Shown here in pieces: positions 1 through 16,287 of a stretch of 41,633 nt of DNA. Source of the DNA: a virus. A model generated the notes under the pieces. That model was given only the letters and a program-made list of their open reading frames with translations. It ran no database searches and was not told the origin of the DNA. The stretch lies in the IMG/VR virus record IMGVR_UViG_3300048591_000794, positions 1 through 41,633 of that record. One strand, given 5' to 3'. The translations under genes and the position numbers were made by a program. Each line of letters opens with the position of its first letter. Position 1 is the first letter of the stretch.

Positions 1-20
1 ATGTGGCCTGTGGGGGCCCG

Positions 21-282
21 AGCAAACCCCCCGGCACACCCCCGGGTACAGCTTTCGTCGAAACCGGGTGCTCCGGGGCGCCAGCAGAACGCTGGGAAAG
101 CCCCCTGGGTCCAGCGCGCAGAATCGGGCCCGAGCAAACCCCCCGGCACACCCCCGGGTACAGCTTTCGTCGGAACCGGGTGCTCCGGGGCGCCAGCAGA
201 ACGCTGGGAAAGCCCCCGGGGTCCAGCGCGCAGAATCGGGCCCGAGCAAACCCCCCGGCACACCCCCGGGTACAGCATCCTG
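21..282. repeat. 112-bp tandem direct repeat array, left part (2 full units plus a partial)
   Basis: Two full 112-bp units start at 21 and 133 (each at AGCAAACCCCCC). A third at 245 is truncated after GGGTACAGC at about 276. Units differ at only a few bases, for example TTTCGTCGAAA in the first and TTTCGTCGGAA in the second. The unit length is not a multiple of 3 and the unit has no stop codon in any of the six frames, so the open frames through it mean nothing. Each unit contains a small dyad CCAGC-N5-GCTGG. The array continues at the right end of the window and is cut only by linearisation. It lies between the 85-aa gene and the capsid promoter. Confidence 0.95.
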
Positions 283-292
283 CGGAACGCCG

Positions 293-550
293 TCAGCCGT
301 TCGGATCTTCGGTCTTGTCCTGCTTGGCTACCGCGGCCGGGTTGGTGATGGGATTGGCCTTGTGCGCCGTGGGGCGCGTGACCTGCTCGTCGCTCACTTT
401 GAGCACGGCGGCCTGGCGGTACGCGGTGCTCGCTGGGTCGCGGATGTAGGTCTTGCCGTTCCAGACGATGGCGCCGGGCGGGGGGCCGCCGTCGGTCCGG
501 TCGATCGTGCCCTCTCGTGTGCCGTCTGGGCCGAGCAGGTTGTGTCGCAT
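293..550 (-). CDS. hypothetical 85-aa protein between protease and capsid genes
   Basis: Not recognised. This is an 85-aa soluble protein with a central GAIVWNGKTYIRDP stretch that reads like a small beta-rich domain, and a Lys/Asp-rich C-terminus. A good ribosome binding site (AGGAG, 8-9 bases before the ATG) supports the start at 550. It is the last gene before the 112-bp repeat array and lies 63 bp after the prohead protease. Across the circular junction, the next gene is the major capsid protein. That position would fit a small head or scaffold-like protein, but nothing in the sequence proves it. Confidence 0.7.
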   Translation of the reverse strand: MRHNLLGPDGTREGTIDRTDGGPPPGAIVWNGKTYIRDPASTAYRQAAVLKVSDEQVTRPTAHKANPITNPAAVAKQDKTEDPNG

Positions 551-613
551 CTGGTGTTCTCCTGGGAATCAGATCGGGAATATTTTCGCACGCGTTGCGG
601 GTCGTGGACGCTC

Positions 614-1588
614 CTACTGGGCGTCCGCCGCGGCGGCGCGGGCCTTCCGCCGTGCCCGGTCGAGCCTCGGGGTGCCGCCGGGACTCCTGGCCTCGCGGAT
701 GGCGGCGGCGGCGGCCCTGGCCTCGGCGATGGTGTCGTCGAGCCGCTGCACGGCGTCGATGAGGCCCATGTCTTTGGCCTCGGCCGCGGTGTACATGCGT
801 CCGTCGGCGGCCGCCCGGACATCCTTGAGGGTCATCCCGGCGGCCTTGCGGCCCGCGGCGACGGCCTGGATGAAGAACTCGCCGTGGGTGTCGACGATGT
901 GCTGCGCGTACTCGAGGTGCTCTTTCGGGATCTCGGCGCCGCTGGCGAAGGCCCCCTTGTAGGCGCCGGTGGAGACGACGAAGGTCTTGATGCCCTCGGC
1001 GGTGAACTGCTCGCTCTGGTCGTAGAGGACGATGAGCGTGCCGATGCTGCCGATCCAGCTCGTGGCCTGGGCGGCGATCTTGCCGGCCTGGCTGGCGGCG
1101 TAGTAGGCGGCGGACCCGGCGTCGTCGTCGACATGGGCCCACGAGGGCTTCTTCAGGCCGGCCTTGCGGATGTCCTCGGCGAGCTCGGGGGTGCCGGCGG
1201 CCATGCCCCCGGGGCTGTCGACGATGTACACCATGGTCTCCACATCGGCGTCGCGGAGGGCCGTGCGCACGGCGCGGCGGGTGCGCTGCGTGTTGGTGAC
1301 GCCGGCGAAGCTGCTCTCGCCCTTGACCATGACGCCGGTGATGTTGATGACCCCGACGCCGGTCTCGTCTTTGGTGTAGAGCAGCTCCTGGACGTCCGGG
1401 TTGTCCCCGGGCTCGGTGACTGCCATCGGCCCCGTGATGGAGAGGGGGCGGCTGGTGCGGAGGCGGCCCGCGGCGTGCTCGGTGACCAGGGCGCGGCCGA
1501 CCTCGGGCCGGATGAGCCATGGCCCCATGTGGTGGGAGTGGCAGGCCGGGGTGTGCGGCTCGTCGTCAAGGATTCGGGTCTGGGGCAT
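614..1588 (-). CDS. S49 (SppA/ClpP-fold) prohead protease
   Basis: The 324-aa protein is of the S49 signal-peptide-peptidase type that phages use to cleave scaffold and capsid precursors inside the prohead. It shows YIVDSPGG (residues 121-128), the nucleophile segment DDAGSAAYYAA with probable catalytic Ser159, the SIGTLIVLYD strand, and VSTGAYKGAF with probable catalytic Lys211, the usual Ser-Lys dyad spacing. The start at 1588 is preceded by GGAGAC and overlaps the portal stop by 23 bases; a longer in-frame opening has no such support. The C-terminus is Ala/Arg-rich. No separate scaffold gene was seen; the capsid protein's N-terminal delta-like region probably serves, as in HK97. Confidence 0.92.
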   Translation of the reverse strand: MPQTRILDDEPHTPACHSHHMGPWLIRPEVGRALVTEHAAGRLRTSRPLSITGPMAVTEPGDNPDVQELLYTKDETGVGVINITGVMVKGESSFAGVTNTQRTRRAVRTALRDADVETMVYIVDSPGGMAAGTPELAEDIRKAGLKKPSWAHVDDDAGSAAYYAASQAGKIAAQATSWIGSIGTLIVLYDQSEQFTAEGIKTFVVSTGAYKGAFASGAEIPKEHLEYAQHIVDTHGEFFIQAVAAGRKAAGMTLKDVRAAADGRMYTAAEAKDMGLIDAVQRLDDTIAEARAAAAAIREARSPGGTPRLDRARRKARAAAADAQ

Positions 1589-3287
1589 GGTCGGTCTCCA
1601 TCTCGGTAAACAGGAGCCCGGTGAGTGTACGGGCGGCGTCGACCGCGCGGCTCCGCGCCCAGGTGTCGGGCAGGTTCGCCGTGGCGTTGTGGTCGGTGTC
1701 GTCGGCAATGGCCTTCATGCCGGTGGTGACCCACCAGGCGGCGAAGGCGGCGGCGACGCGCGGCGCGTCGATGGCGGGCGGCGGCTTCCCGGCGGCGGCG
1801 GCGATCATCGCGCTGGCGGCCCTGACGGTGGTTTCGGTGTGCTCGGCGAGCTGGGCCTCGAGGCGCGGGTAGAAGTCGGAGGCCCATTCGCTCATCTTGG
1901 TGCGGCCGCCGGCGGCGGCCCGCCTGACGGCGTTGAGCTCCTTCGCGGCGGCCCATGCGCAGCTGGTTTCGAAGAGCTCGGTCGCGCTCGCCCGCAGGGA
2001 TGTCTCGTCGGGGCCCAGGGGTGGCCCGCCCTTCTTTCGCTCGTCCTTCGGGCCCTGGCGGCCCTCCGCGGCCAGGTGGCTCGGGACGAGGGCTCGGTTG
2101 ACGTAGTAGACGTCGCCCACATCACCGATCCCGTTCTCGTTCTCGGCCTCGCGTATGTCGTTCTGGCTCATCGAGCCGGCGAAGAACCGCTTGGTGTAGT
2201 AGTCGCTCCTCGCGCGCTGGTCGCCCCGCATGTACCCGTTCACCAGGTGCTCGAGGTAGACGGTTCCCCAGAGGCGCGGGTCGATGAGCTTGCGGGTGGC
2301 TTCCTGCTCCCACCGGCGGAGCCAGGCGCCGAGGGTGCTCACGACGTGGTCGATGCCCTGCGCCTCGATGTTGTTGTTCGTCATCCGGTCGAGGTGGCCG
2401 ACCTTGTGGGGCGCGACGCGGAACCATCGGCAGATGTCCTCGACGGCGAACTTGCCGCTCTGGATCATCTGGGCGTCCTCGGGTTTGATGCTGATGGACT
2501 CGAACTCGAGGCCGTGCTCCAGGACGCCGACCTGGTGTGCCTTGTCCGGCCCGTCGGCGTAGAGGGTGCGCCACTGCTCGCGGAGCTGGGCTTTGGCTTC
2601 CGGGGTGAGTTTGTTGGCGGTCTTGAGGAGGCCGGTGAGCTTGGTGCCCTGCCCGAAGTAGCTGGACTCGAACTTCTGGATGGCGAGGGCCTTGCCCAGG
2701 CTTTCGCGGGCCTTCTGGGCGACGGACCAACCCTGGATGCCGTCGGGCCCGAGGCCGTGCAGGTGGAACATGTCCTGCGGCTCGAAGTACATCGGCTTGA
2801 AGCCCAGGTCGGATGCTTCCACCAGGTACCAGAGCTTGCCGCTGATGCGTTTGGGGTGGCACCGGGAGGCGTGGATCGGCCAGAGGTTGACCGGCCGGCC
2901 GGCGCCGTCGCGCTCGATCTCGGCGAACCCCCCGCCCCACCCGAGGGCGGACGCGGTGGTGGTCTCGCGGAACGACATCGGCCCCATCTCGTGGTTGGGC
3001 TCGATGTTAAAGATCCGGTAGGTCGGGAGGTTGTCGAGCCGGCGCTTGCCCCGCGGCTTGGTGCGTTCGTAGGTGTGGAACGGCAGCTGGGCGACGTCCT
3101 CGGCGATGACGCGGATGCACGCGAAGTACGCGGAGAGGGCCAGGGCGGATTCCGGGGTGACGCGGGTGCCGGCGGCGGTCCGCGGCCCCACCCAGCTGTC
3201 CAGCATCCAGGTGTGCGGGTCGTGGATGCCGCTCTCGCTGCTGGAGGTCGCGTGTGGCGTGGGCAGGAGGTTGCCGAGGAGGCTCAT
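1566..3287 (-). CDS. phage portal protein (HK97 family)
   Basis: The 573-aa protein forms the dodecameric portal at the capsid vertex through which DNA is packaged. Recognisable family segments are SAYFACIRVIAEDVAQLPFH near residue 60, a central region with FHLHGLGPDGIQGWSVAQKA, and FAVEDICRWFRVAPHKVGHL, all typical of the Phage_portal (PF04860) family. Length is slightly above the usual 400-500 aa; the last ~150 residues are Ala-rich and variable. The start at 3287 has GGAG upstream and overlaps the preceding small membrane gene by ATGA. The order terL-portal-protease is canonical. Confidence 0.95.
   Translation of the reverse strand: MSLLGNLLPTPHATSSSESGIHDPHTWMLDSWVGPRTAAGTRVTPESALALSAYFACIRVIAEDVAQLPFHTYERTKPRGKRRLDNLPTYRIFNIEPNHEMGPMSFRETTTASALGWGGGFAEIERDGAGRPVNLWPIHASRCHPKRISGKLWYLVEASDLGFKPMYFEPQDMFHLHGLGPDGIQGWSVAQKARESLGKALAIQKFESSYFGQGTKLTGLLKTANKLTPEAKAQLREQWRTLYADGPDKAHQVGVLEHGLEFESISIKPEDAQMIQSGKFAVEDICRWFRVAPHKVGHLDRMTNNNIEAQGIDHVVSTLGAWLRRWEQEATRKLIDPRLWGTVYLEHLVNGYMRGDQRARSDYYTKRFFAGSMSQNDIREAENENGIGDVGDVYYVNRALVPSHLAAEGRQGPKDERKKGGPPLGPDETSLRASATELFETSCAWAAAKELNAVRRAAAGGRTKMSEWASDFYPRLEAQLAEHTETTVRAASAMIAAAAGKPPPAIDAPRVAAAFAAWWVTTGMKAIADDTDHNATANLPDTWARSRAVDAARTLTGLLFTEMETDHAPDPNP
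1638..1650. repeat. 13-bp oriented motif family GTCGACCGCGCGG, 17 copies (this is copy 1)
   Basis: Exact copies start at 1638, 3510, 7531, 8205, 9068, 11645, 12356, 20322, 23718, 38616 and 41349. One-mismatch copies start at 16821, 27052, 29834, 31265, 37154 and 39596. All are on the plus strand, that is CCGCGCGGTCGAC on the coding strand. The motif joins two palindromes, CCGCGCGG and GTCGAC. In genes it is read in two different frames (R-A-V-D and A-R-S-T), so a protein motif does not explain it. Confidence 0.85.
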
Positions 3288-3529
3288 GGCCTGCTCCGTC
3301 TGTAGGCGTACGCGCTGCTGTCGATCCAGAGCAGGGCGCCGACGGCGATCGGGGCGGCGGCGCGGTGGATCTGGGACGTCCCCCACCATATCAGCGCGAG
3401 GGCCCCCGCGGCTTGGGTGACCCTGGTTGCGGCGCCGGCGGTCTTGCCCAGCCCGGCCGCGGCGGCGCGGAGCCGGTGCCGCGTGTGGGGGCCGTGGTGC
3501 TGGGGGTCGGTCGACCGCGCGGTTGGCAT
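3284..3529 (-). CDS. small membrane protein upstream of portal
   Basis: An 81-aa protein with a basic N-terminus followed by one or two hydrophobic segments (about residues 38-50 and 58-72, GALALIWWG and APIAVGALLWI). Function not recognised. It overlaps the portal start by ATGA, so it is translationally coupled. GGGAG lies upstream of its ATG. A copy of the 13-bp motif falls at codons 3-7, and a promoter-like sequence sits just upstream. Phages often carry a tiny membrane protein here; a holin role is conceivable but unsupported. Confidence 0.65.
   Translation of the reverse strand: MPTARSTDPQHHGPHTRHRLRAAAAGLGKTAGAATRVTQAAGALALIWWGTSQIHRAAAPIAVGALLWIDSSAYAYRRSRP
3510..3522. repeat. 13-bp motif copy GTCGACCGCGCGG
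   Basis: Exact copy of the genome-wide oriented motif. It lies inside codons 3-7 of the 81-aa gene and 27 bases downstream of the putative -10 box at 3549-3554. Confidence 0.8.
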
Positions 3530-3548
3530 GGGGTGGCTCCCTGCCCCT

Positions 3549-3576
3549 AGTCTATCCGGGTTCAGAGCACGGTGAA
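3549..3576 (-). promoter_or_regulatory. putative promoter for the 81-aa gene, portal and protease
   Basis: Reading leftward, TTCACC (3576-3571) and TAGACT (3554-3549) are separated by 16 bp, 20 bases before the ATG at 3529. The -35 lies inside the end of terL. The -10 region GGATAGACTAG closely matches the one at 18433-18438. Confidence 0.45.
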
Positions 3577-5208
3577 CGGGCTTTCCTCGATGTCGCCGGC
3601 GTCCTCGTCGAGCATCAGGCGGCCCAGGGCCATCAGCAGGGCGACGATCATGTCGATTTTCCTGGCGTCCTGCCGCTCCGCCTTGACCGGGCGGATGTCC
3701 TCGTTTTCGTTGACCCTAACCTGGACGTTGCCCGCCTGCCAGTTGGCGACGGGGTGGCCGCCGTGGCGGATGCCGCCCTCGCTGAGGAGCCTCTCGAGAT
3801 ACTTGCATGGCCCGGTGAAGTTGACGATCGTCTGGGTGAACGGGGTGATGTTGATGCCCTCTTTCATGAGGGTGGTGATCGTGTGGACGGCGTTGTGGGG
3901 GTCGCAGGCGATGCTCCGGAACGGGGTAACCTCGTGGACGGCCATGATGTGGGCGAGGATGCAGTCGTAGTCGATGATCGACCCCTCGGTGGCGTAGATG
4001 GCCCCCTCGGCGTGCCACTGGCTGTAGGGGACGAAGTCGCGTGTTTCCCGCTCCCGCATCCCCTCCTCCGGGATCCAGACGTCCCAAAGGACGTCGATGG
4101 TGCCGTCCTCGAGCCGGAACACCCGTGTCAGGGCCGCGGTGTCGCGGGTGCTCGCGAGGTCGAGCCCGGCCCAGCACTCGTGGCCTGCGTGGTCCTCGGG
4201 CTGGCCCCCGCAGGCGTCCCACTGCTCGCGCTTGATCCAGACGGTCTCGCTCTGCGTCCAGATGTTCAACCTGTACCGCTTGAAGGTGTTGGTCTTGGAC
4301 GGGGTGTTCTCGGCCTCGATGAAGTCCTGGCGGAAGTCCTCGAGGGCGATGGTGTGCCCAAGGCTCGGGTTCGCCTTGAACCACGTGGCTTCGGCCTTCC
4401 AGTCGTCGTCGGTCCCGGCGGCGCGGATGTACGGGAAGAAGGCGAGGTCGTGGTACTGGCCGTCGGCGACCCGTTCGGCGTACTGGTGCTGTTCCCAGCA
4501 GATGGAGTTGCGGTCCCATCCGGCGGTGGTGATCGCGACCAGGAGGGGCTGGCGCCTGGCGGAGCCGGCGTACCGGAGCACGTCCCACATGAGGCGGCTC
4601 TTGTGGGCGTGCAGCTCGTCGATCACGGTCGCGCTGGCGTCGAGGCCCTCCGAGGTAAAGGTCTCTCTGGAGAGGGCGACGAGGCTGCTGCCGGTGGCCT
4701 CGAAGGTGATGGTCTTGGTGCTCTTGTAGGGCCTGGTGACGGCGGCCAGGTCCGGCTGTGCGGCGCAGAAGGCCGCGGCTTCCTCCCAGACGATGCCCGC
4801 TTGTTTCCGGTCGGTGGCGGCAAGGAAGACGCGGGCCCGCTGCTCGCCGTCGCCGATCAGCATGAAGTTGGCGATCGCGGCGGCGAGGGTGGACTTGCCG
4901 TTTTTCTTCGGGATCTCGATGTACGCGACGCGGAACCGCCGGGTGCCGTTCGGTCGTTTCCATCCGAAGAGGGGGCCGAGGACGTCCTCCCGCTGCCAGT
5001 CGAGGGGGTCGAATGGTTGGCCGGCGAGCTCGCCCTTGGTGTGGCGGAGGAACTGCCGGCAGAAGAGGATCGGGCGGTCGGCGGCGGCCCGGTCGAAGTA
5101 GTAGCCCTGGCAGGCCGCCCTCTCGTCGTTCTCGCTCTTGATCTGGTCGAGCCATCCCTCGTCGCGCGCGCGGCGGCGTGCGGCCTGGGGCGTGAGTTTG
5201 TCTGCCAT
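3562..5208 (-). CDS. terL: terminase large subunit
   Basis: The 548-aa DNA-packaging motor has both expected halves. The ATPase has the Walker A variant PKKNGKST (residues 100-107) and Walker B with catalytic Glu in TVIDELH (194-200). The RNase H-like nuclease has acidic residues D350 in GLDLAS, D436 in ACDPHN and D519 in KIDM. It matches the Terminase_1 (PF03354) layout seen in HK97-type phages and is full length. It starts 4 bases after terS ends and precedes the portal operon, as usual. The nuclease active site looks intact. Confidence 0.97.
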   Translation of the reverse strand: MADKLTPQAARRRARDEGWLDQIKSENDERAACQGYYFDRAAADRPILFCRQFLRHTKGELAGQPFDPLDWQREDVLGPLFGWKRPNGTRRFRVAYIEIPKKNGKSTLAAAIANFMLIGDGEQRARVFLAATDRKQAGIVWEEAAAFCAAQPDLAAVTRPYKSTKTITFEATGSSLVALSRETFTSEGLDASATVIDELHAHKSRLMWDVLRYAGSARRQPLLVAITTAGWDRNSICWEQHQYAERVADGQYHDLAFFPYIRAAGTDDDWKAEATWFKANPSLGHTIALEDFRQDFIEAENTPSKTNTFKRYRLNIWTQSETVWIKREQWDACGGQPEDHAGHECWAGLDLASTRDTAALTRVFRLEDGTIDVLWDVWIPEEGMRERETRDFVPYSQWHAEGAIYATEGSIIDYDCILAHIMAVHEVTPFRSIACDPHNAVHTITTLMKEGINITPFTQTIVNFTGPCKYLERLLSEGGIRHGGHPVANWQAGNVQVRVNENEDIRPVKAERQDARKIDMIVALLMALGRLMLDEDAGDIEESPFTVL

Positions 5209-5212
5209 GGGG

Positions 5213-5728
5213 TCAGCCTGCCGAGGTCGCCGGTGCCGGCTTGCCGTTGATCCGCAGGAAGCCCTCGAGCGGGCTCTGCGGGCTCAGTGTAGGGGCGACG
5301 GCGATCCTGGTCCTGGCGCTCGGGGTGAGGCCGTACTCGAGCTCGATGCGGAGGAGCTGGTCGGCCAGCTTGGCGGCGATGTTGACCTGGGGCCATTGCT
5401 GGACGTACTTCGGCTGGCCCTTCTCGTCCTTAATGGTGTAGACCTCGCCGTTGGTCTGGAGGAACTCCTGGACCCGGCGCCACCTGGCGTGGATGGAGCA
5501 GTAGCGGGCGATGATGGCGGCGTCGGCCTTGGTGGCCAGGCCCATGCGGTCCAGCAGCCTGAAGGTGCGGTGCCAGCACTCGACGGCAATCTCGTCGGTG
5601 AGCCAGGTCGGGATCTGCGGCTTCCCCTCGGGCGGCTGGGGCTCCGCGGGGTTCATGGCCCGCTTCCGAGGGTTGCCCCGCAGCTCTCGCAGGGTGCTCG
5701 GGGCCGGCTTCGGACCTCGTGGTGCCAT
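5213..5728 (-). CDS. terS: terminase small subunit (P27 family)
   Basis: The 171-aa DNA-recognition component of the packaging terminase begins with the typical P27-family MAPRGPKP and LRGNPRKR, followed by Pro-rich LTDEIAVECWHR and a helical central domain (DAAIIARYCSIHARWRRVQEFL). The C-terminal half carries the LRIELEYGLTPSARTRIAV segment shared by the family (PF05119). The ATG at 5728 has no ribosome binding site, but a TATAGT box ends 6 bases before it, so the mRNA is probably leaderless. The pac/cos site should be nearby but cannot be located by eye. Confidence 0.93.
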   Translation of the reverse strand: MAPRGPKPAPSTLRELRGNPRKRAMNPAEPQPPEGKPQIPTWLTDEIAVECWHRTFRLLDRMGLATKADAAIIARYCSIHARWRRVQEFLQTNGEVYTIKDEKGQPKYVQQWPQVNIAAKLADQLLRIELEYGLTPSARTRIAVAPTLSPQSPLEGFLRINGKPAPATSAG

Positions 5729-5734
5729 GGGGAG

Positions 5735-5740
5735 ACTATA
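5735..5740 (-). promoter_or_regulatory. -10 box giving a probably leaderless terS transcript
   Basis: TATAGT (5740-5735 on the minus strand) is one base from the TATAAT consensus and sits 6 bases before the terS ATG. The expected transcription start therefore falls on or next to the A of ATG. No purine-rich ribosome site lies between. The -35 is weak (CCGACG). Confidence 0.55.
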
Positions 5741-5805
5741 CGCGGGGCCGGGATGGCCGTCGGCGTCGGCCCGACGCGGGCTTTACCTACGACCTCTTCT
5801 CGGAC

Positions 5806-6138
5806 CTACGCTGCCATCTGCACCGCGAAGATCGCCCACGCAACCTTGCAGATTACATGCAGTACCTGATCGGTGTGGTAGCCGTACCACTTCTCGCACT
5901 TGCCAAAGTCGATCGCGGCGTGAATGGCGATCTCGAAGACCCCAAGCAGGACGCTCCCGGTCACCAAAGCAACGCCCCCGCCGTGGATGATCGCGTGCGA
6001 CAGCAAGCAGTGAGGCCACACCCGCACCTGGAGGTTGAGTGCCGAGTGCCGGTCTTTGCCGACAGCGAGGTAGTCTCCTTGGAGCGGGTAGTCAGCGAGG
6101 GCGTGGCCCACAAGAAGCCAGAAGAACATCGTCATCAT
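5806..6138 (-). CDS. DUF3307-type integral membrane protein
   Basis: The 110-aa protein has several hydrophobic segments and the features of DUF3307 proteins: LLVGHALADYPLQGDYLAVGK at the N-terminus (conserved His12 and Asp16), LLSHAIIHGG in the middle and IHAAIDFGKCEKWY then HTDQVLHV near the C-terminus. The biochemical role of the family is unknown; it occurs in bacteria and in phages. It starts at 6138, overlapping the previous gene's stop. Its base composition is visibly less GC-rich than the genome average, as in the next two genes upstream, which suggests later acquisition. It is separated from terS by 77 bp. Confidence 0.75.
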   Translation of the reverse strand: MMTMFFWLLVGHALADYPLQGDYLAVGKDRHSALNLQVRVWPHCLLSHAIIHGGGVALVTGSVLLGVFEIAIHAAIDFGKCEKWYGYHTDQVLHVICKVAWAIFAVQMAA

Positions 6139-6401
6139 GGGGTGCTCCTCCCTTCGAGGCGGTTCCTGAGGTCGTCGATGTTGACACGGATGGACTTGTC
6201 GGCTTGGAGCCTCATCACAAGCGAGTGCAGAACCTCGTATAGCATCTGCGTGGACGGGTTGGTCTCCTTTCTGTTGATGTTCTTTTCGCACTGGTCGATG
6301 TGATCGGCGGCATCTTCGGCGAGCTTGACCACCTCGTCGAGGCCGTGCGCCGTGCTGAGCCAGCGAACATCCCGAAGCCGATCTGAAAGAGTCTTGCTCA
6401 C
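6135..6401 (-). CDS. hypothetical 88-aa protein
   Basis: Not recognised. The start is GTG at 6401, overlapping the previous stop as GTGA. The protein looks all-helical and highly charged (LDEVVKLAEDAADHIDQCEK, then MLYEVLHSLVMRLQADKS). It overlaps the DUF3307 start by four bases, so the three genes 6805-5806 form one coupled cluster of lower GC content. Confidence 0.6.
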   Translation of the reverse strand: MSKTLSDRLRDVRWLSTAHGLDEVVKLAEDAADHIDQCEKNINRKETNPSTQMLYEVLHSLVMRLQADKSIRVNIDDLRNRLEGRSTP

Positions 6402-6805
6402 TCCGTCTCTCCCTTCGCAGCGTCGGTGTTGCGAGGCGCGTGCTTGAGGTCGTACATGGCGTCCTCGATGTCCTCGATCGCGTCCTTGTGCCCCCAGTAG
6501 TTCGACCACTCCGGTTCCTTGCCGACGACGATTTGGTATGCCCGGGACAGAGCATCCTCGGCGCGGTCCCGCTCCGCAAGCACCTGGAGGTCAGCCTGTT
6601 CCTTGAGGGTCGGCAACTTTGGATCGACCCATCGGATTACCAGATCATCGTCGATCAGGGCCACGCTCTCCGGCTGCTCGGTGCCGTCGTAGTCGTCGCC
6701 CCACTCGATCTGCATTGCCTCGTGCCACGCCTCGATCGCCTCGGTGAATCCGGGCGCATCGACCACGCGAGTCTGCCCGTCAAACTGGATCATGTACGCG
6801 CTCAT
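6398..6805 (-). CDS. hypothetical 135-aa acidic protein
   Basis: Not recognised. The N-terminus MSAYMIQFDGQTRVVDAPGFTE and EAWHEAMQIEWGDDYDGTEQPESVALIDDDLV read as a small alpha/beta domain; the C-terminal half is helical and acidic. AAGGAG precedes the ATG at 6805. Immediately upstream is an AT-rich imperfect palindrome. Codon use is less GC-biased than in most of the genome. Confidence 0.65.
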   Translation of the reverse strand: MSAYMIQFDGQTRVVDAPGFTEAIEAWHEAMQIEWGDDYDGTEQPESVALIDDDLVIRWVDPKLPTLKEQADLQVLAERDRAEDALSRAYQIVVGKEPEWSNYWGHKDAIEDIEDAMYDLKHAPRNTDAAKGETE

Positions 6806-6818
6806 CGTCGCTCCTTTT

Positions 6819-6834
6819 CATAACGATCATTATC
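6819..6834. promoter_or_regulatory. AT-rich imperfect palindrome, possible operator
   Basis: CATAACGATCATTATC is symmetric at 12 of 16 positions and unusually AT-rich for this genome. It overlaps the stop of the upstream 173-aa gene and lies 14 bases before the ATG at 6805. On the coding strand it contains GATAAT, which could act as a -10 box. A plausible ligand is the ribbon-helix-helix protein at 7348-7575, but this is inference only. Confidence 0.35.
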
Positions 6835-7351
6835 GGTCGTCCGTCGCCCGTGCGTTGATGGCGTCGGCTGCCAGGCCGAGCAGGATCGTCGGCATGTCTC
6901 CAGACTCCTCGCACCCGATCGCGTCCAGATATTGCTCGACCGCCTCGGCCAGCCGCTGGTGTTCTGTGGGGTCTTGGCTCGTGGCCTCGGCCGCCGCGGC
7001 GTCGGCCAGGCGGAGGGTGTCACGGGCCCTGCTCTGGGCCCACTCGCGGAACTGATCCCGCATGTCGCCCCATTTCTCCGGCGTCGCGTTGGCGATGTTC
7101 CTCAGCTCCGCTTCCGCCCGCTCGGCACGATCGCGGATGGCGTCTGCCTCCCCTGCGGCGGCGATCGGGCCGGGGGCGGCGTTGCGGAGGGCCTCGTCGA
7201 TCTTCACCACTGTCGTGTGTGTCGTCGGGTCGAAGCCCGGGATGTCTACGGCCTGTTCGACGGCGGCGATGATGATGCTGCGCGCCTCTCTCAGAACCTC
7301 CCGCATCCGCCTGGCCTCATGCTCAAGGACCCGCTCGGTCGCCATCGTCAT
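6830..7351 (-). CDS. hypothetical 173-aa helical protein
   Basis: Not recognised. It is predicted to be almost entirely alpha-helical, with coiled-coil-like stretches (EHEARRMREVLREARSII; GEADAIRDRAERAEAELRNI) and a C-terminal LAEAVEQYLDAIG segment. The start at 7351 overlaps the stop of the ribbon-helix-helix gene by ATGA; an alternative ATG lies two codons in. Many phages carry such accessory coiled-coil proteins of unknown role. Confidence 0.65.
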   Translation of the reverse strand: MTMATERVLEHEARRMREVLREARSIIIAAVEQAVDIPGFDPTTHTTVVKIDEALRNAAPGPIAAAGEADAIRDRAERAEAELRNIANATPEKWGDMRDQFREWAQSRARDTLRLADAAAAEATSQDPTEHQRLAEAVEQYLDAIGCEESGDMPTILLGLAADAINARATDDR

Positions 7352-7575
7352 CCTCCCCGCCCGTCGTGGGCGTTTGCCCTGGTGTGTTTGCGTACCGCCC
7401 GGCCGATGTAGTCGCTGACTGCCGCCCTGATCATGTCGCTCCTGCTGACCCCCGCGGCGGCGGCGGCGGTGTCGAGGATGTCGGCCTCGTCGGCGTCCAT
7501 CCGGACGCTGATCATGGTGGCCCGGGGTCGGTCGACCGCGCGGCTCCGCGGCTCGAATCTGGCTGTCGTGGTCAC
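7348..7575 (-). CDS. ribbon-helix-helix DNA-binding protein
   Basis: This 75-aa putative repressor or partition-like regulator has MISVRMDADEADILDTAAAA (beta strand plus helix 1) followed by GVSRSDMIRAAVSDYIGRAV, the classic MetJ/Arc/CopG ribbon-helix-helix pattern with G-S/T-R-S in the turn. The start is GTG at 7575 with AGGAG 6 bases upstream. A copy of the 13-bp motif lies inside its own 5' coding region (7531-7543), where autoregulation would be easy. As the clearest DNA-binding regulator in the genome, it is the first candidate to bind the 13-bp motif or the 6819 palindrome. Confidence 0.8.
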   Translation of the reverse strand: MTTTARFEPRSRAVDRPRATMISVRMDADEADILDTAAAAAGVSRSDMIRAAVSDYIGRAVRKHTRANAHDGRGG

Positions 7576-7583
7576 TGGCGCTC

Positions 7584-7724
7584 CTATCGGAATAGCCTGC
7601 GGATGGCCCGGCCCGCGGCCTTGCCCGAGGCCCGGCGTGCGGTGCGTCGGCCGACGCGGTTGCGGCGGACGGCGTTGATGTCCCCGAGGATCCTGGCGAT
7701 GGTGTAGAGGGCCCGCCTCATCAT
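7584..7724 (-). CDS. very basic 46-aa protein
   Basis: A 46-aa Arg-rich protein starting MMRRALYTIARILGDINAV and ending in an Arg/Lys/Ala-rich tail. Function not recognised; nucleic-acid binding is suggested by charge alone. It is supported by an ATGA overlap with the preceding gene and an 8-bp gap to the ribbon-helix-helix gene. Confidence 0.55.
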   Translation of the reverse strand: MMRRALYTIARILGDINAVRRNRVGRRTARRASGKAAGRAIRRLFR

Positions 7725-8155
7725 CGGCCCCGGCACGGCAGTCCGCCCTTGGTGTGGTGTGGTGTCGGCGCCCCGTGGGCGTCGGTGCTGACGATGCGCC
7801 TGCAGGACCCGCACCGGCACAGGCCGGTGCGGAGCATGCGCTCTCTCGTCGCCAGGCCCTCATCGGTCAGGTACCATCGGTCGAGGAGCGTGGCGGGGAT
7901 CCTCGCCATCTTCCGGTCCATGTCGTCGGTGAGTTCCTTGGCGGCTGTCCCGAACTTCTCGAGGTCAGTCAGGGCCATGTAGATGTTGTAGATGTCCGGG
8001 GCGCCGTCCATGATCTCATGGATGCCCTGGATGTCGGTCGGCCCGTGCTCGGCAAGATGGTGCACCAGGATGCGGTGTGCGGGGCTCTGGAGGATGGCGT
8101 TGGCCTTGGCGAGGGTTTGGTCGATGTCGTGGGCGAGCTGATCGGTCGGTGTCAT
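7721..8155 (-). CDS. winged-helix-like protein with C-terminal Cys cluster
   Basis: The 144-aa protein has a first half (AHRILVHHLAEHGPTDIQGIHEIM, then IYMALTDLEKFGTA, then RWYLTDEGL) that reads like a winged-helix DNA-binding domain of the MarR/ArsR general type. The C-terminus has CRCGSCRRIV (about residues 113-122), a small metal-binding knuckle. A regulatory role is inferred. It is one of two genes preceded by the duplicated 89-bp leader (the other is 8242-9018), so the two are probably co-regulated. ATG at 8155 with AAAGGAA upstream. Confidence 0.65.
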   Translation of the reverse strand: MTPTDQLAHDIDQTLAKANAILQSPAHRILVHHLAEHGPTDIQGIHEIMDGAPDIYNIYMALTDLEKFGTAAKELTDDMDRKMARIPATLLDRWYLTDEGLATRERMLRTGLCRCGSCRRIVSTDAHGAPTPHHTKGGLPCRGR

Positions 8156-8241
8156 GTTCGGTTCCTTTGTGCTCCGGCCGGCCTATCCCGGCCCGGGCCC
8201 TCGGGTCGACCGCGCGGGCTCGGCCCTCGGGCGCGGGTCGG
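8153..8241. repeat. 89-bp duplicated leader, copy 1
   Basis: Matches 9016-9104 at 88 of 89 positions. It spans the whole intergenic region from the stop of the 258-aa gene to the ATG of the 144-aa gene. It contains a 13-bp motif copy (8205-8217), the self-complementary tracts GGCCGGCC and GGCCCGGGCC, and the ribosome-binding leader GAGCACAAAGGAACCGAACATG shortened (coding strand, ending at the ATG). Confidence 0.92.
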
Positions 8242-9018
8242 TTACCGCCGGCGGTGGATCGAGCAGGTCCCGTCGCAGTAGGTGGTCTGGCCCATCTGGT
8301 CGTGGGGGCCGGCGGGGTGGCCGTCGCACTGGCTGGCGAGCCATGCCCGCGCCGCTTCTCGACCGTCGCGGGCGGCGTCGCCTCCGGCGGCGGCTTCGAC
8401 GATCCTTTCGAGCAGGCCGCCGCTGTCGGGCCCGTTGTAGATCTGGTCGTGCGTCATCCCTCGCCCGAGGAGGTAGTCGGCGGCGGCGTTCACGACGGCC
8501 CTGGCGGCTGGCGTTTGGGCCGCGGGGAGCACGGTCTTGGGCGCGCACACCCCGCCGGTCGCCCCCTCCTCGTACTCCTCGCGCTCCGCCATGGGCATGG
8601 CAATCCACGCCGACCAGTCGCCGGTGAATCCCTGATCGCGGCGAGCGTACTCGTAGGCGGCTCGGTCGTCGCTTCCGCCGCGGGTGATGGTCTCGGCCGC
8701 GTCGAGCAGCGCGTCTCGCATGCGCGGACACTCGGCGATGTCGGCGGAGCAGGCCGCATTCTCAACCGTGTGGGCCGAGTTGGGCATGCCGCAGTGTGGG
8801 CAGTCCTCCTGGTGCTCGTCGGCGGCGGCGGATGCGGCCAACTGCCTCGCGTTCCGCTGCTCCTCCAGCTCGGCGTCGGGGTCGAACGCCAGTCGCACAC
8901 GCCGCGCGGCGCACTCCTCGCAGTACACGCCGGTCCCCCGCTCGTGCGTGCAGTGGGTCTCGTGCTCGCAGCTGGCCGAGTCGCACTGGGTTGTCATGTC
9001 ATGCTTCACGGTTTTCAT
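8242..9018 (-). CDS. hypothetical 258-aa zinc-finger protein
   Basis: Not assigned to a family. The N-terminal third holds a dense set of Cys/His residues (CDSASCEHETHCTHERG, then YCEECAARR, then CPHCGMPNSAH), consistent with two or more zinc sites. Another CDGTCSIH cluster is at the C-terminus. The middle is helical and Ala/Glu-rich. The gene is flanked on both sides by the 89-bp duplicated leader, whose copy 2 supplies its ribosome binding site (AAAGGAA). Confidence 0.65.
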   Translation of the reverse strand: MKTVKHDMTTQCDSASCEHETHCTHERGTGVYCEECAARRVRLAFDPDAELEEQRNARQLAASAAADEHQEDCPHCGMPNSAHTVENAACSADIAECPRMRDALLDAAETITRGGSDDRAAYEYARRDQGFTGDWSAWIAMPMAEREEYEEGATGGVCAPKTVLPAAQTPAARAVVNAAADYLLGRGMTHDQIYNGPDSGGLLERIVEAAAGGDAARDGREAARAWLASQCDGHPAGPHDQMGQTTYCDGTCSIHRRR

Positions 9019-9104
9019 GTTCGGTTCCTTTGTGCTCCGGCCGGCCTATCCCGGCCCGGGCCCTCGGGTCGACCGCGCGGGGTCGGCCCTCGGGCGCGGG
9101 TCGG
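9016..9104. repeat. 89-bp duplicated leader, copy 2
   Basis: Same element as 8153-8241 with a single C/G difference. It runs from the ATG of the 258-aa gene to one base before the stop of the 107-aa gene. It includes the 13-bp motif at 9068-9080 and AAAGGAA before the start. Confidence 0.92.
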
Positions 9105-9105
9105 C

Positions 9106-9429
9106 TTAGCTGGCGGCGGCGACGATCGTCCATCGCTGGGTCGTGGCGGGGGTGGCGTCGAGGTCAAGGGTGTTGGTGGCGGCGAGGCGTCGGAAGAGCC
9201 GGCCGTCCAGCTCGGCAAGGTCGAGGCGGGCGGCCTTGACGGCCTCGTAGACCTCGCGGGCTTGGATCTGGCTGCTCTCTGCACCGCGCATCAGGACCTC
9301 GGTCCTGGCGTCGATCTGCTCGTCGATCTCGCGGACATGGCGGGCGGCGTCCTCGAGGACCTCGGCCTTGCGGGCCTCGAGGGCGGCGATCTTCTGGGCG
9401 GCGTCGGTGATCTCGCGGGTGGTGGTCAT
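9106..9429 (-). CDS. hypothetical 107-aa coiled-coil protein
   Basis: Not recognised. MTTTREITDAAQKIAALEARK followed by DAARHVREIDEQIDARTEVL gives a strong heptad-like helical region; the C-terminus is more beta-like. The start at 9429 is chosen because GAGCACAAAGGAACC sits just upstream; a longer opening to 9480 would begin inside the promoter's transcribed leader. It is the first gene after the promoter at 9490-9518. Confidence 0.6.
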   Translation of the reverse strand: MTTTREITDAAQKIAALEARKAEVLEDAARHVREIDEQIDARTEVLMRGAESSQIQAREVYEAVKAARLDLAELDGRLFRRLAATNTLDLDATPATTQRWTIVAAAS

Positions 9430-9489
9430 CGTCTGGGTTCCTTTGTGCTCGGTGGTCCGGTTGGTCGCGGTGTTCCTCATCTGTCATAC

Positions 9490-9518
9490 AGTATCGTCCT
9501 ACGGGGCGGGTTTGTCGA
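9490..9518 (-). promoter_or_regulatory. sigma70-like promoter for the leftward small-gene cluster
   Basis: On the minus strand TCGACA (9518-9513) and GATACT (9495-9490) are separated by exactly 17 bp. Both boxes are close to consensus, in a 93-bp intergenic region. The expected start is near 9483, giving a leader of about 50 bases that includes GAGCACAAAGGAACC before the 107-aa gene. Confidence 0.6.
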
Positions 9519-9535
9519 GCCCTTCGGCGCGGAAT

Positions 9536-9560
9536 CCCGAAAGAACCCAAGATTTTCGGG
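9536..9560 (-). terminator. weak hairpin after the ParB-methyltransferase gene
   Basis: CCCGAAA (9536-9542) pairs with TTTCGGG (9554-9560) across an 11-base loop, just downstream of the stop at 9574. There is no T-tract after it, so intrinsic termination is uncertain. Confidence 0.35.
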
Positions 9561-9573
9561 GGCGGGTCGGCGC

Positions 9574-10863
9574 CTACTCGAGGCGGACCCCGGGCTGGCG
9601 CTCGCCGTCGGCGTTGCACCGCTCGGCCTCGACCGCCGTCAGGGCCTGGTAGCGGCGGACGATCACGTCGCAGTAGCCCGGGTCGATCTCGAACCCCCAG
9701 CACCGGCGGCTCATCTGGTCGGCGGCGATCAGGGTGCTCCCGCTGCCCAGGAAGGGGTCGAGAACGATGTCGCCCGGTCTGGTGCTCCTGGCCATGAGCT
9801 CGGCGAGCATGCCGACGGGCTTCATCGTGGGGTGGTCCCGCGAGGCCTGGGGCCTGTCGAAGAGCAGGACGCTGTCGGTGGTCGGCGGCGGCGCGAGGTG
9901 GGTCTGGCCCCGTTCCTCGGGCGTCCAGCCGTAGAACACGGTCTCGTGCTGGTAGTGGTAGTCGGTGCGCCCGAGCACCAGGGCTTGTTTCTTCCAGACG
10001 AGGGTTTGCTGCCAGACGCCCTGGTCGCGCAGGGCCCGGGCGAAGGTGAGCATGGTGGTGCCGCTGGGCGCGAAGACGTACCAGACCGCCCCGGGGCGGG
10101 TGTAGGTCTTGGCCAGGTCGAACGCCGTGCGGAGGAGGGTGTCGAGGCCCTCGGGGCTGTCCCCAGCGATCGTCAGGGCGTCCTCGGTGCCGCCCTTGTA
10201 GTTGATCCCGTACGGGGGGTCGGTGATCACGGCGGCCGGTCGCGCCTGGTCGGCGGGGTCGGCGTGCACCAGGCGTATCCATGGGTGGCAGTCGTCGGCG
10301 CACGACGCGCACAGCAGGCGGTGCCGCCCGAGCCTCCAGAAATCCCCCGCCCTGGTGGTTGGTTTCTTCGGGCGCTTCGGCGTTTCCCCCTCGGTGGTGT
10401 CCGCCGGCGCCGGCGGGGCGGGCGGGCCGCGGAGGGCCTCGGCCTCCGCCGCGGTGAACCCGAGGGCCTCGAGGCCGGTGCTCTCGGCGGCGAGCTGCTC
10501 GAGCTGGTGGGCGAGGACCTGGATGTCCCAGGAGCTCAGCTCGGCGGTGCGGTTGCTGGCGATGGCGTAGGCCGCGGCGTCGACGTTGGCCTCGTCGACG
10601 ATGACGGCGGCGATGTACCTCCACCCCAGGTTCCGCGCGGCGTCGAGGCGGGCGTTCCCGGCCCTGACCACCATGCCGGCCTTCTGCACGATGATCGGCA
10701 CCCGCTGGCCGTACCGCTTCAGGGTGGCCTCGACGGCCTCGAGGCTCCGCTCGTCGTGGCTCCTGGCGTTCTCGGGGTCCTCGTTCAGGAGGTCGGTTTC
10801 GACGGCGAACTGCCGCAGGGGCGCGGCGATGTGGCTCAGGTCTTTCGTGGGTGTGGTGGGCAT
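9574..10863 (-). CDS. ParB-N domain fused to DNA methyltransferase (DPPY)
   Basis: The 429-aa protein has an N-terminal ParB/Srx-like domain (residues ~10-110, with the signature AGNARLDAA at 68-76 and IASNRTAELSSW). After a Pro-rich linker comes a beta-class amino-methyltransferase. Catalytic motif IV is TDPPYG (214-219), the SAM-binding motif LDPFLGSGST lies near 368-377, and GFEIDPGY near 390-397 supplies the acidic residue contacting SAM. DPPY points to N6-adenine methylation. Such fusions are common in phages, where they may protect DNA from host restriction. All key residues look intact. A paralogue with lost motifs lies 3 bp upstream. Confidence 0.92.
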   Translation of the reverse strand: MPTTPTKDLSHIAAPLRQFAVETDLLNEDPENARSHDERSLEAVEATLKRYGQRVPIIVQKAGMVVRAGNARLDAARNLGWRYIAAVIVDEANVDAAAYAIASNRTAELSSWDIQVLAHQLEQLAAESTGLEALGFTAAEAEALRGPPAPPAPADTTEGETPKRPKKPTTRAGDFWRLGRHRLLCASCADDCHPWIRLVHADPADQARPAAVITDPPYGINYKGGTEDALTIAGDSPEGLDTLLRTAFDLAKTYTRPGAVWYVFAPSGTTMLTFARALRDQGVWQQTLVWKKQALVLGRTDYHYQHETVFYGWTPEERGQTHLAPPPTTDSVLLFDRPQASRDHPTMKPVGMLAELMARSTRPGDIVLDPFLGSGSTLIAADQMSRRCWGFEIDPGYCDVIVRRYQALTAVEAERCNADGERQPGVRLE

Positions 10864-10866
10864 GGC

Positions 10867-12114
10867 TCAGCCGGGGTGGATGGCGGTGGTCTGGCCGGCG
10901 GTGGTGGCCTGCGCTGTGGACCTGGTGAGGGCCTGCCATCTGGCGACGATGGCCTCGGCCTCGCCGGGGCTCGGGGTGATGCCCAGGGCCCTGGCCCCGA
11001 GCTGTTCCGCGGCGATGAAGACCCCGCCGGCCCCCGCGAATGGGTCGAGGACCAAGTCCCCGCGCGCGGCGCTGTTGCGGATGGCCTTGGCGTAAAACTC
11101 GACGGGCGTGGCCCCGTCGGGCTCGCCGATCCGTGGGGAGAGCTCCCAGGTGCTCGTCTGCTTTCGGTCCGGAGGCTCCCGGCGGTCGGCGCCGGGCTTC
11201 CAGCCGTAGAGGATCGGCCGGTGGCGGTAGTGGTGGTCCTCGTGGCCTAGGTCGAGCTTCTGGCTGATCAGGGCGAGGGTCTGCCGCCAGATGTCGCCGA
11301 GCTCGCTGGCGGTGTCGATGAAGGCCGGGCCTGGTGGCGCGGTGAGGTACCAGCAGGCGCCCGCGGCGGAGTGCTCCGCGGCCAGGGCGATCGCCAGGGC
11401 GAGCACGGTGGCGGCCGGCTCGGTGTCGCCGTCGGCGTTGACCTGCAGCCGGTTCTGTTGGGGCGGGTCGCTGACCAGGAGCCTGGCCAGGTCCTCGCCC
11501 ATAAGGGCCTGGTAGGTGCCGCGGTGCGATGGGCTCCCGATCACGAGCCGGTGGTCGCCCATGGTGACGACGGAGCCGGTGCGGAGGGTGGGTTTCTCGG
11601 GCTGGGGCTGCGGGCCGGGGGTCTCTCTCTCCTCCCGGGCGGCTGTCGACCGCGCGGCCTTCGGGCGTGGGGCCGCCGGCCGGGATGCGGCGATGATCTG
11701 GTCCATCTCCGCGGCGGTGTACCCGGGGACTGAGGCCTGCCCGGCGTCGCGGAGGGTGGTCATGGTGGCGCCGAGCCTGGACTCGTCCCACCCGCTCAGC
11801 TCGGCGACGCGGTTGTCGGCGATGGCGAACCCGCGGGCGGTCTGCTCGTCGTCGTCGAGGACGGCGGCGGCGACGTGGGTCCACCCCAGGCGTCTGGCGG
11901 CCTCGAGCCTGGCGTTGCCGGCGGAGACGGTCATCGTGTCCCGCCTCACGACGAGGGTCTCCCGCTGGCCGAACCGCTTGAGGCTGGCCATGGCCTGCTC
12001 GATGCTGTGCTCGTCGTGGCGCCTGGCGTTGTTCGGGTCGGGCTTGATCGTGCCGATCTCGACCGCGAGGGCGCGGAGGGGTTCGGCGATGTGGCTGAGG
12101 TCGGGGGCGGTCAT
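10867..12114 (-). CDS. degenerate paralogue of the ParB-methyltransferase (probable pseudoenzyme)
   Basis: The 415-aa protein parallels the 9574-10863 product along its length: DLSHIAEPLRALAVEIGTI, AGNARLEAARRLGW, an Ala/Pro linker, then a methyltransferase fold. The ParB-like part is well kept, but catalytic motif IV reads SDPPQQ (215-220) instead of DPPY. The SAM-contacting acidic position in the GFEIDP equivalent reads GITPSP (378-383), replacing Glu by Thr; LDPFAGAGG (from 356) survives. The frame is fully open and tightly spaced, so the gene is maintained. It may have become a DNA-binding or regulatory partner of the active copy. A 13-bp motif copy lies in the linker at 11645. Confidence 0.85.
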   Translation of the reverse strand: MTAPDLSHIAEPLRALAVEIGTIKPDPNNARRHDEHSIEQAMASLKRFGQRETLVVRRDTMTVSAGNARLEAARRLGWTHVAAAVLDDDEQTARGFAIADNRVAELSGWDESRLGATMTTLRDAGQASVPGYTAAEMDQIIAASRPAAPRPKAARSTAAREERETPGPQPQPEKPTLRTGSVVTMGDHRLVIGSPSHRGTYQALMGEDLARLLVSDPPQQNRLQVNADGDTEPAATVLALAIALAAEHSAAGACWYLTAPPGPAFIDTASELGDIWRQTLALISQKLDLGHEDHHYRHRPILYGWKPGADRREPPDRKQTSTWELSPRIGEPDGATPVEFYAKAIRNSAARGDLVLDPFAGAGGVFIAAEQLGARALGITPSPGEAEAIVARWQALTRSTAQATTAGQTTAIHPG

Positions 12115-12130
12115 GTGGTCTCCGGCCTGC

Positions 12131-12403
12131 TCAGATGCCTCTCACCCGCTCGAGGATCTCCTGGAAGTCGTCGTCGCTGCCGTCGTCGGCGACGGCGACG
12201 ATCCATGCCGCGTGCCGCAGGGCCTCGAGGCGGCCCATCTGGGTCTGGGGGGCCAGGACGGTGATGTCGTCGCCGTTGCGCCCGACCAGCTGCTCGTTGG
12301 CGAGCCCGAAGTCCGCCGGCACCGAGTGCTCCCGTGGCGTCGGTGGCGGGGTGGCGTCGACCGCGCGGGGCGGCGCTTCGGGCTTGGGTTTCCTCTGGCT
12401 CAT
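12131..12403 (-). CDS. hypothetical 90-aa protein
   Basis: Not recognised. Pro/Lys-rich N-terminus (MSQRKPKPEAPPRAVDATPP), then a compact region GLANEQLVGRNGDDITVLAPQ and an acidic C-terminus DDGSDDDFQEILERVRGI. The start at 12403 has GGAGA upstream and overlaps the preceding gene's stop by ATGA. The 13-bp motif at 12356-12368 lies in the 5' coding region. Confidence 0.6.
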   Translation of the reverse strand: MSQRKPKPEAPPRAVDATPPPTPREHSVPADFGLANEQLVGRNGDDITVLAPQTQMGRLEALRHAAWIVAVADDGSDDDFQEILERVRGI

Positions 12404-12675
12404 GGCGGTCTCCGGAACAGGGGCGGCGTGCTCAGGCGGTGGTACAGGGCCGCCGCGTTGGGGTCGATCTGGTCGGGCCCGACCTCGAACTCGGCGCCGG
12501 TCTCGTGCCCGCTCACGCCCCGGCACCGGACGTTCCCGGTCGGCAGGACCCCGAGGACATCGGCCGGTCCGATGTGCGGGGTCCTGCCCACCGAAACCGG
12601 GATGACTGCGGCGACGCGCTCGCCGGGGCGTGCCTGGTGGTGGGTGGTCGGGGTGAGGTGCTTGTCGGGAGCCAT
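12400..12675 (-). CDS. hypothetical 91-aa protein
   Basis: Not recognised. A 91-aa, mostly beta- and loop-rich sequence (ERVAAVIPVSVGRTPHIGPADVLG). It is coupled to the next gene by ATGA. Upstream is the large inverted repeat at 12688-12773, so this gene may begin a transcript or depend on read-through. Confidence 0.55.
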   Translation of the reverse strand: MAPDKHLTPTTHHQARPGERVAAVIPVSVGRTPHIGPADVLGVLPTGNVRCRGVSGHETGAEFEVGPDQIDPNAAALYHRLSTPPLFRRPP

Positions 12676-12687
12676 TCGGTGGTTTCA

Positions 12688-12773
12688 GGGGGGGGGCCTG
12701 GAAACTCGCGGATTTGCGCGCACTGCCGACGTGGTGGTCAGCAGTCGATCACTCCGCAGTTTCAGACCCCCCC
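12688..12773. repeat. long inverted repeat with G/C homopolymer arms
   Basis: Left arm 12688-12711 (nine G then CCTGGAAACTCGCGG) and right arm 12754-12773 (CCGCAGTTTCAGA then seven C) are complementary apart from a few mismatches, around a loop of about 42 bases. It lies between the 91-aa gene and the 324-aa gene and overlaps the latter's last codons and stop. It could be a terminator or structured RNA, though no T-tract follows, or a protein-binding cruciform. The C-rich edge resembles the spacers of the iteron array at 22535. Confidence 0.7.
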
Positions 12774-13736: not shown

Positions 13737-13766
13737 GGTGTGCCTCCGGTGTGGTCGTGCGCCTGG

Positions 13767-14006
13767 TCACCCGTTCGGGTGGTCGGGCGCTGGTGCGTTC
13801 CCGCCGTGCTCGGCGGGTGGTTCGGCGGGTTTCTCGGTGCGTGGCCGGCGCTGGGCCTTCGAGGCTTGGGCGAGGGCCTTGCGTTCGGCGCGTTCAACCT
13901 GGGCGCTGGCGCAGGCCTCGCACATGCCCTCGAAGATGCCGGCGTCGGCGCCGAGGGCGTGGTTGGCGTGGCACTCGCTGCAGGGCGTGGTGGTCTGGTC
14001 GCTCAT
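13767..14006 (-). CDS. 79-aa zinc-finger protein
   Basis: A small protein with CSECHANHALGADAGIFEGMCEAC near the N-terminus (a CxxC-CxxC zinc site) and a Lys/Ala/Pro-rich tail. The start at 14006 overlaps the stop of the HNH gene by ATGA. Function unknown; its place next to HNH and zinc-ribbon genes suggests nucleic-acid binding. Confidence 0.6.
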   Translation of the reverse strand: MSDQTTTPCSECHANHALGADAGIFEGMCEACASAQVERAERKALAQASKAQRRPRTEKPAEPPAEHGGNAPAPDHPNG

Positions 14007-14338: not shown

Positions 14339-14340
14339 GG

Positions 14341-14913: not shown

Positions 14914-14925
14914 CGGTGGCTCCTG

Positions 14926-15456: not shown

Positions 15457-15496
15457 GGCGTTCTGCGGGCCTGCCGATGATACCCGGCCCCGGGCG

Positions 15497-16245: not shown

Positions 16246-16287
16246 GGTCGTTCTCCCTGTGGCTCTCGTGGGTCGTGGGTGTGGGGG

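Follow-up and report, generated by a model that had tools for sequence, protein, structure and literature searches.

A near-invariant, single-orientation word dispersed through a high-GC viral genome

The polar dispersed words described so far are either regulatory sites that phages keep near genes or host signals for recombination and segregation. The latter include the KOPS/SRS of FtsK and SpoIIIE and the Chi of RecBCD, 8-bp words that reverse at the origin or occur at high density in the host genome. Among phages, those of mycobacteriophage cluster A encode a cognate monomeric repressor with two domains (HTH and Stoperator), and the known stoperators vary in sequence and lie mainly in short intergenic spaces. 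These asymmetric 13-bp sites are dispersed in 20-30 copies per phage (L5, Bxb1, Peaches), are oriented with transcription and in some cases lie inside promoters (PMC6550527, PMC9283540). The start-associated sequences of cluster K mycobacteriophages are likewise asymmetric 13-bp words in many copies, nearly all in one orientation, and sit immediately upstream of gene starts (PMC3203893). The motif described here resembles known polar phage sites, but it has the defining features of no single system in full.

The motif lies in IMG/VR record IMGVR_UViG_3300048591_000794, the whole of which (41,633 bases, 70% GC) is the window analysed in this study. All of its ~63 called genes are on the minus strand. 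By its PHROG and Pfam matches the virus is a tailed phage, with the following genes:

614-1528, minus strand, protease
1566-3287, minus strand, portal
3562-5208, minus strand, terminase large subunit (terL)
5213-5728, minus strand, terminase small subunit
34089-35591, minus strand, tape measure
38668-39294, minus strand, head-tail adaptor
39847-41202, minus strand, major capsid

Other genes encode a lambda O-like initiator, a Snf2-type helicase whose gene adjoins that of a PD-(D/E)XK-like nuclease, a HerA-like ATPase, a small ribbon-helix-helix protein and three DNA methyltransferases, two of them with ParB domains. Since the head genes span both record ends in their usual order, the record probably represents a nearly complete genome that is circularly permuted. 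Tandem repeats of 112 bp (98-99% alike), at 14-276 and 41413-41629 in the noncoding region before the capsid gene, probably explain where this permuted genome was broken. Imperfect tandem repeats inside the initiator gene (22531-22664, units TGTCAGGGG and CCCCTGACA) are probable iterons of a lambda-type origin. A tRNA with a CAT anticodon (18158-18230), called as tRNA-Met, may alternatively be Ile2 or initiator, and overlaps the end of a called small gene (18193-18417). Between the capsid and adaptor genes, the small protein encoded at 39326-39763 has no PHROG family and is, judging from its 42-54% identity to counterparts in the planctomycete contigs G169, G241 and G208, a conserved head-module protein.

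An earlier note on this DNA had counted 11 exact and six one-mismatch copies of the 13-mer GTCGACCGCGCGG, all on the plus strand and too many to be expected by chance. This count is exact, and neither perfect nor one-mismatch copies of the 13-mer occur on the minus strand; allowing two mismatches or fewer raises the number of matches to 33, when shuffles give 10.4 +/- 3.0. The orientation was also read correctly as opposite to the gene strand: with all called genes on the minus strand, the motif reads CCGCGCGGTCGAC in the transcription sense. Its core is the 11-mer GCGCGGTCGAC (transcription sense), found in 16 exact copies when Markov models of order 2 to 4 predict 0.05-0.08 (log10 P about -31 to -34), an excess stronger than that stated before. 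An unbiased ranking of k-mers (Markov order 3 and 4) places the same word at the top for lengths 10 to 13, and at length 9 the top words are its sub-words. The sites are listed below, with the strand of the transcription-sense reading:

1638-1650, minus strand, exact 13-mer in the portal gene (1566-3287) near its 3' end; SRAVD
3510-3522, minus strand, exact, codons 4-7 of a small ORF (3284-3529) between terL and portal; ARST
7531-7543, minus strand, exact, 34 nt into the ribbon-helix-helix gene
8205-8217, minus strand, exact, in the leader of gene 7721-8155, 50 bp before the gene; second copy of the leader at 9068
9068-9080, minus strand, exact, in the second copy of that leader, 50 bp before gene 8242-9018
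11645-11657, minus strand, exact, variable linker of the ParB-methyltransferase (10867-12114); ARST; absent from homologues
12356-12368, minus strand, exact, noncoding, 34 bp upstream of gene 12131-12322
16821-16833, minus strand, exact 11-mer core in gene 16556-16966; ARST
20322-20334, minus strand, exact, in the nuclease-like gene 20175-20543; RAVD
23718-23730, minus strand, exact, in the HerA-like gene; ARST; overlaps a reverse copy at 23713-23723
27052-27064, minus strand, exact 11-mer core in gene 26889-27356; ARST
29834-29846, minus strand, variant GCGCGGCCGAC with one core mismatch, in the -35/-10 spacer of a promoter-like sequence that precedes gene 28962-29795
31265-31277, minus strand, exact 11-mer core in gene 30965-31408; GAVD
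37154-37166, minus strand, exact 11-mer core in gene 36839-37387; GAVD
38616-38628, minus strand, exact, 40 nt into the head-closure-like gene 38307-38666; RAVD
39596-39608, minus strand, exact 11-mer core in gene 39326-39763; GAVD
41349-41361, minus strand, exact, noncoding, starting at ~+5 of a promoter-like sequence that precedes the major capsid gene

The motif is all-or-none in sequence. Five of the six one-mismatch 13-mers differ only outside the 11-mer core, and the copy at 29834 alone differs inside it; one-mismatch neighbours of the 11-mer are at background (1 vs 2.1 expected), and on the transcription-sense strand the sub-words GCGCGGTC and GCGGTCGAC never occur outside a full motif. 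Around the core, C is found at -2 in 14/15 copies and C or G at -1, and the flanks are otherwise unconserved except in one duplicated leader. Base composition would favour the reverse orientation (0.13 copies expected, vs 0.05), but the equal number of reversed copies that might have been missed by eye does not exist. The sole reverse 11-mer (23713-23723) overlaps the HerA-gene copy at 23718, with which it has the palindromic GTCGAC in common, in a perfect 16-bp palindrome (GCGCGGTCGACCGCGC), and is thus not an independent copy.

There is on average about one 11-mer per 2.6 kb, and the intervals between sites vary slightly less than random placement would give (coefficient of variation 0.58, P = 0.018). 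Most exact cores (12/16) are inside genes, many of them deep inside. Fully noncoding sites are over-represented (4/16 vs 7.3%, P = 0.025) and all of them precede genes. The proximity of several copies to start codons, to which the earlier note drew attention, is real but does not amount to an enrichment (7 sites within -150..+60 vs 5.0 expected, P = 0.21), and a start-associated or ribosome-binding element was dropped for this reason. The two leaders that carry one motif each (8156-8241 and 9019-9105, ~87 bp) are almost identical and precede genes 7721-8155 and 8242-9018. A distinct leader word with a Shine-Dalgarno-like AAAGGA, AGCACAAAGGA, occurs five times on the minus strand (8173, 9036, 9449, 25395 and 28396; 0.01 expected), at least two copies being just upstream of gene starts.

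The word is under selection as DNA. Its coding copies are indeed read in two codon phases, giving (R/G)AVD or ARST, and motif sites hold 12 of the 13 such peptides in the genome (7/7 RAVD/GAVD, 5/6 ARST), which are themselves in excess. When synonymous codons were shuffled across the genome (500 shuffles), a mean of 0.55 copies (maximum 4) was obtained, vs the 12 coding copies observed. In the methyltransferase, the nuclease and HerA, the sites map to variable linkers or indels in homologue alignments. The peptide at 39596, TIGTGAVDGFKI (GTGAVDGFKI), recurs unchanged in the planctomycete relative G208 but in other codons (GGC GCG GTC GAC in the phage, GGA GCC GTG GAC in G208), which argues for selection on DNA and not on protein; and because the two differ there by synonymous changes only, the word arose without any change of protein.

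Searches with TerL, helicase, HerA, ribbon-helix-helix or leader sequence gave no close relatives, and megablast of positions 1-20000 against phages gave no match. By terminase and capsid, the phage is closest to phage regions within Planctomycetota assemblies (G002 for TerL, 56%), which makes a high-GC planctomycete the likely host. The nearest syntenic relatives, G169, G241 and G208 (head modules syntenic, MCP 47-48%), are 70-74% GC and all fall in one order of 17 genomes. The motif series was not found in about 80 HerA-sharing phage loci, 75 TerL-sharing loci or these syntenic contigs (two copies in G169 vs about 0.5 expected, none in G241 and G208), and the word is in excess in none of the loci whose terminase, helicase or HerA is related to that of the phage. 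Scanning viral contigs twice for 14-mers around the word gave at least 237 stretches (2.1 Mb), and among the matches listed none had more than two copies per strand. Apparent repeats in three loci (L076, L032 and L077) turned out to be coding repeats or gene families. Among the loci compared, the motif is specific to this phage.

The looked-for signal in candidate hosts did not appear either. Across 199 Planctomycetota genomes the 11-mer reaches at most about 30 per Mb, when the phage has 385 per Mb, and the highest counts agree with what Markov models predict (191 vs about 231 in G141, 249 vs about 274-309 in G156). Each of the 17 genomes of the order containing the nearest relatives, the candidate host order, has 10-54 copies. 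A reversed-pattern control had suggested enrichment in some genomes (191 vs 1 in G141); since Markov expectation accounts for this excess, such a control is misleading for the motif word.

How the motif compares with described systems can be judged from controls run with the same detector, which recovered, at a strength similar to that of the motif, the promoters of T7 (12 exact copies of an 11-mer, two one-mismatch) and the stoperators of Bxb1 and Peaches (7-8 exact, five one-mismatch). Like stoperators, the motif is asymmetric, ~13 bp long, dispersed and in the transcription sense, with slightly fewer sites (16 and one variant). Unlike them, it is nearly invariant, has a different sequence and is mostly intragenic: in Bxb1, 25/32 stoperator-like sites are outside genes, one is more than 50 nt inside, and the sites flip with the direction of transcription. 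Its genome also differs from those of stoperator phages in having no lysogeny genes that we could find and, by inference, a host of another phylum, and the repressors Bxb1 gp69 and Peaches gp68 gave no significant hit in any of the six frames (phmmer, blastp). It is mainly the greater sharpness than in the T7 and stoperator controls, together with the intragenic placement, that sets the motif apart from stoperator systems. With cluster K start-associated sequences it shares asymmetry, orientation and multiple copies, without the enrichment at starts. T7 promoters also come in about a dozen exact copies of one orientation, but no phage RNA polymerase was found among the proteins scanned, and the motif is GC-rich as well as largely intragenic. 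As with KOPS/SRS and Chi, it is polar, location-independent, exact and tolerated in genes; it differs from them in its length (11-13 bp), its single orientation genome-wide and its lack of enrichment in candidate hosts. Of the analogies offered earlier, stoperator-like action thus survives as the most likely single reading although several stoperator traits are missing, whereas host Chi, KOPS or uptake sequences are disfavoured.

We therefore lean, at a probability of about 0.4, towards the motif sites being binding sites for a phage-encoded regulator that acts with polarity on RNA polymerase. The 16 sites (17 with the variant) would be specific polar sites for one phage-encoded DNA-binding protein, which, once bound, would act on polymerase arriving from one side. 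At 29834 and 41349, the two sites on promoter-like sequences, it may serve as an operator, and at the remaining sites as a roadblock to elongating polymerase, or a modulator of it, that works in one orientation; transcription could thereby be silenced or staged along the entire unidirectional genome. This is the best single reading because of the overlap with promoter-like sequences, the noncoding sites before genes, the copies around regulator genes and the uniform orientation. Of the four best sigma-70-like promoters on the coding strand, two have a motif site where an operator would lie (in the spacer and at ~+5), a coincidence with P about 0.004 against random placement that is post hoc and weak, the promoters being predictions of which about 0.7 are expected by chance per 20 kb. 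Three copies fall within 1.5 kb around the regulator genes at 7348-9018, including the copy near the beginning of the ribbon-helix-helix gene. Against operators and roadblocks, 12/16 sites are intragenic, many deep, unlike in Bxb1; sites are not enriched near gene starts; and their slightly even spacing also fits a genome-wide DNA signal. Moreover, since all genes are on one strand, co-orientation with transcription is inseparable from packaging or replication polarity. A lysogenic role is unsupported, because no integrase, cI-type repressor or cluster A repressor homologue was recognised among the proteins scanned.

That a protein reads the motif, which protein this is and that it affects transcription are what we infer, and three gene products come into question as the reader:

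7348-7575, minus strand, ribbon-helix-helix (CopG/Arc-like) protein, candidate reader (Pfam RHH_1 2e-10; PHROG transcriptional repressor 9e-8)
7721-8155, minus strand, orphan 144-aa protein, possibly HTH by eye, weak alternative candidate (no Pfam or PHROG family)
22943-24667, minus strand, HerA-like ATPase with two C-terminal winged-helix repeats, disfavoured

The ribbon-helix-helix protein would be the first candidate. A winged-helix reader was considered too; the HerA-like ATPase is the most evident motor candidate, and its two recognition helices are nearly identical (TGYKRSSRDTY[IL]QRL twice). Yet ten phage loci with the same helices (182 kb) hold two motif copies vs 0.94 expected, and a comparable oriented intragenic motif occurs in 0/77 HerA-encoding loci. 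With its same-helix counterparts at background, the ATPase is an unlikely reader and was discarded as the main idea.

The non-random count, single orientation, exactness and DNA-level selection of the motif and its confinement to this phage are real, and an artefact of statistics or coding (codon bias, protein repeats, recent duplication) is scarcely credible. CGC/GGC-GCG-GTC-GAC are, judging from composition, preferred codons in this GC-rich genome, but codon bias, repeats and duplication are refuted by the synonymous shuffles, the two reading phases and the homologue alignments; in addition, flanks are unconserved save in the duplicated leader and near-miss variants do not exceed background. 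It is hardly more tempting to invoke phage-specific promoters of the T7 kind, served by an RNA polymerase or sigma factor that the phage itself encodes. Copy number, sharpness and orientation would match, but the proteins scanned (PHROGs, Pfam, NCBIfam) include neither a recognisable single-subunit RNA polymerase nor a sigma factor, there is no second conserved box at a fixed distance, and most sites are deep in genes, in a word so GC-rich that it would be hard to melt. Somewhat less remote, though still improbable, is an element of RNA in which the 11-mer works in the transcript, through an RNA-binding protein, processing, pausing or antitermination. Every copy is transcript-sense, in coding and leader regions alike. 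Against this, folding energies around the sites resemble those of random windows, with no consistent structure (an RNA hairpin was dropped on this ground), and the 29834 copy lies between promoter hexamers, so that a transcript from the predicted promoter would not include it. We give a similarly low chance to the phage having taken over a polar signal of the host, be it Chi, KOPS or a DNA-uptake sequence. E. coli phages that have no recombinase of their own carry an excess of Chi sites (PMC3784561), and no phage recombinase was recognised here among the families scanned. The background counts in Planctomycetota, including the candidate host order, and the absence of more than two copies on one strand among the viral-contig matches listed speak against it.

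The strongest competitor, doubtful by itself but nearly as likely as operators and roadblocks, is a polar DNA-transaction signal of the phage (KOPS-, TRS- or Chi-like), in which the word would steer a phage motor, a nuclease-helicase or a packaging or segregation machine, or mark the phage's own DNA, independently of genes and transcription. Its standing comes from sites that are indifferent to gene boundaries and from an orientation that is equally compatible with it; exactness, polarity and fairly even spacing also fit. The phage encodes possible machinery, namely the HerA-like ATPase with its two winged helices and matching recognition helices, and the Snf2-type helicase beside the PD-(D/E)XK-like nuclease, and there is a precedent in Bacillus phages, where an FtsK-gamma domain is fused to the terminase small subunit (PMC8190038). 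However, the HerA loci with the same helices, and the 77 in all, lack such a motif. Replication is probably bidirectional at first, given the lambda O-like initiator with internal iterons, and a signal that guides it would be expected to flip at the putative origin (22531-22664) instead of keeping one orientation throughout. Known motor and Chi signals, finally, are only 5-8 bp. A wider form of this idea, in which the word would be a polar address code of the phage's own, spread along the genome and read by one of its proteins to give the DNA a direction, is a shade more doubtful, and so, jointly, are its suggested uses in packaging, segregation, end protection or self-recognition independent of genes and host. 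We know of no tailed phage with its own gene-independent polar word of such length and stringency.

Regardless of whether polymerase-directed operators and roadblocks prove to be the explanation, this motif is phage-specific, nearly invariant and largely placed in coding DNA through synonymous and permissive changes. Writing a near-invariant word into coding DNA implies strong DNA-level selection across the whole genome. Its reader, once found, would reveal a new mode of whole-genome silencing or a directional signal made by a phage. To our knowledge, few phages of Planctomycetota have been studied at all.

The HerA-like ATPases of phages have a pattern of their own. Most of the 29 homologues read have recognition helices that are nearly identical within a protein and differ between proteins (examples from the window and L304-L374: TGYKRSSRDTY twice; YSPSSSSFTNPLG/YSESSSSFTNPLG; AGLVHGSGTWSKY/AGLVYGSGTWSKY). 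This suggests that each of these ATPases may read a specific repeated site, and that the helix pairs undergo concerted evolution and serve sequence-specific loading. Strong dispersed words are also present in some other HerA phages: L366 has 14 copies of CTCCTGGTCGAACG, the complement of which contains AGGAG, L333 has TTTGGCCTC and L307 has TAGCGGCGAGGCCAA. These words differ from the phage motif, and their positions suggest start-associated sequences.
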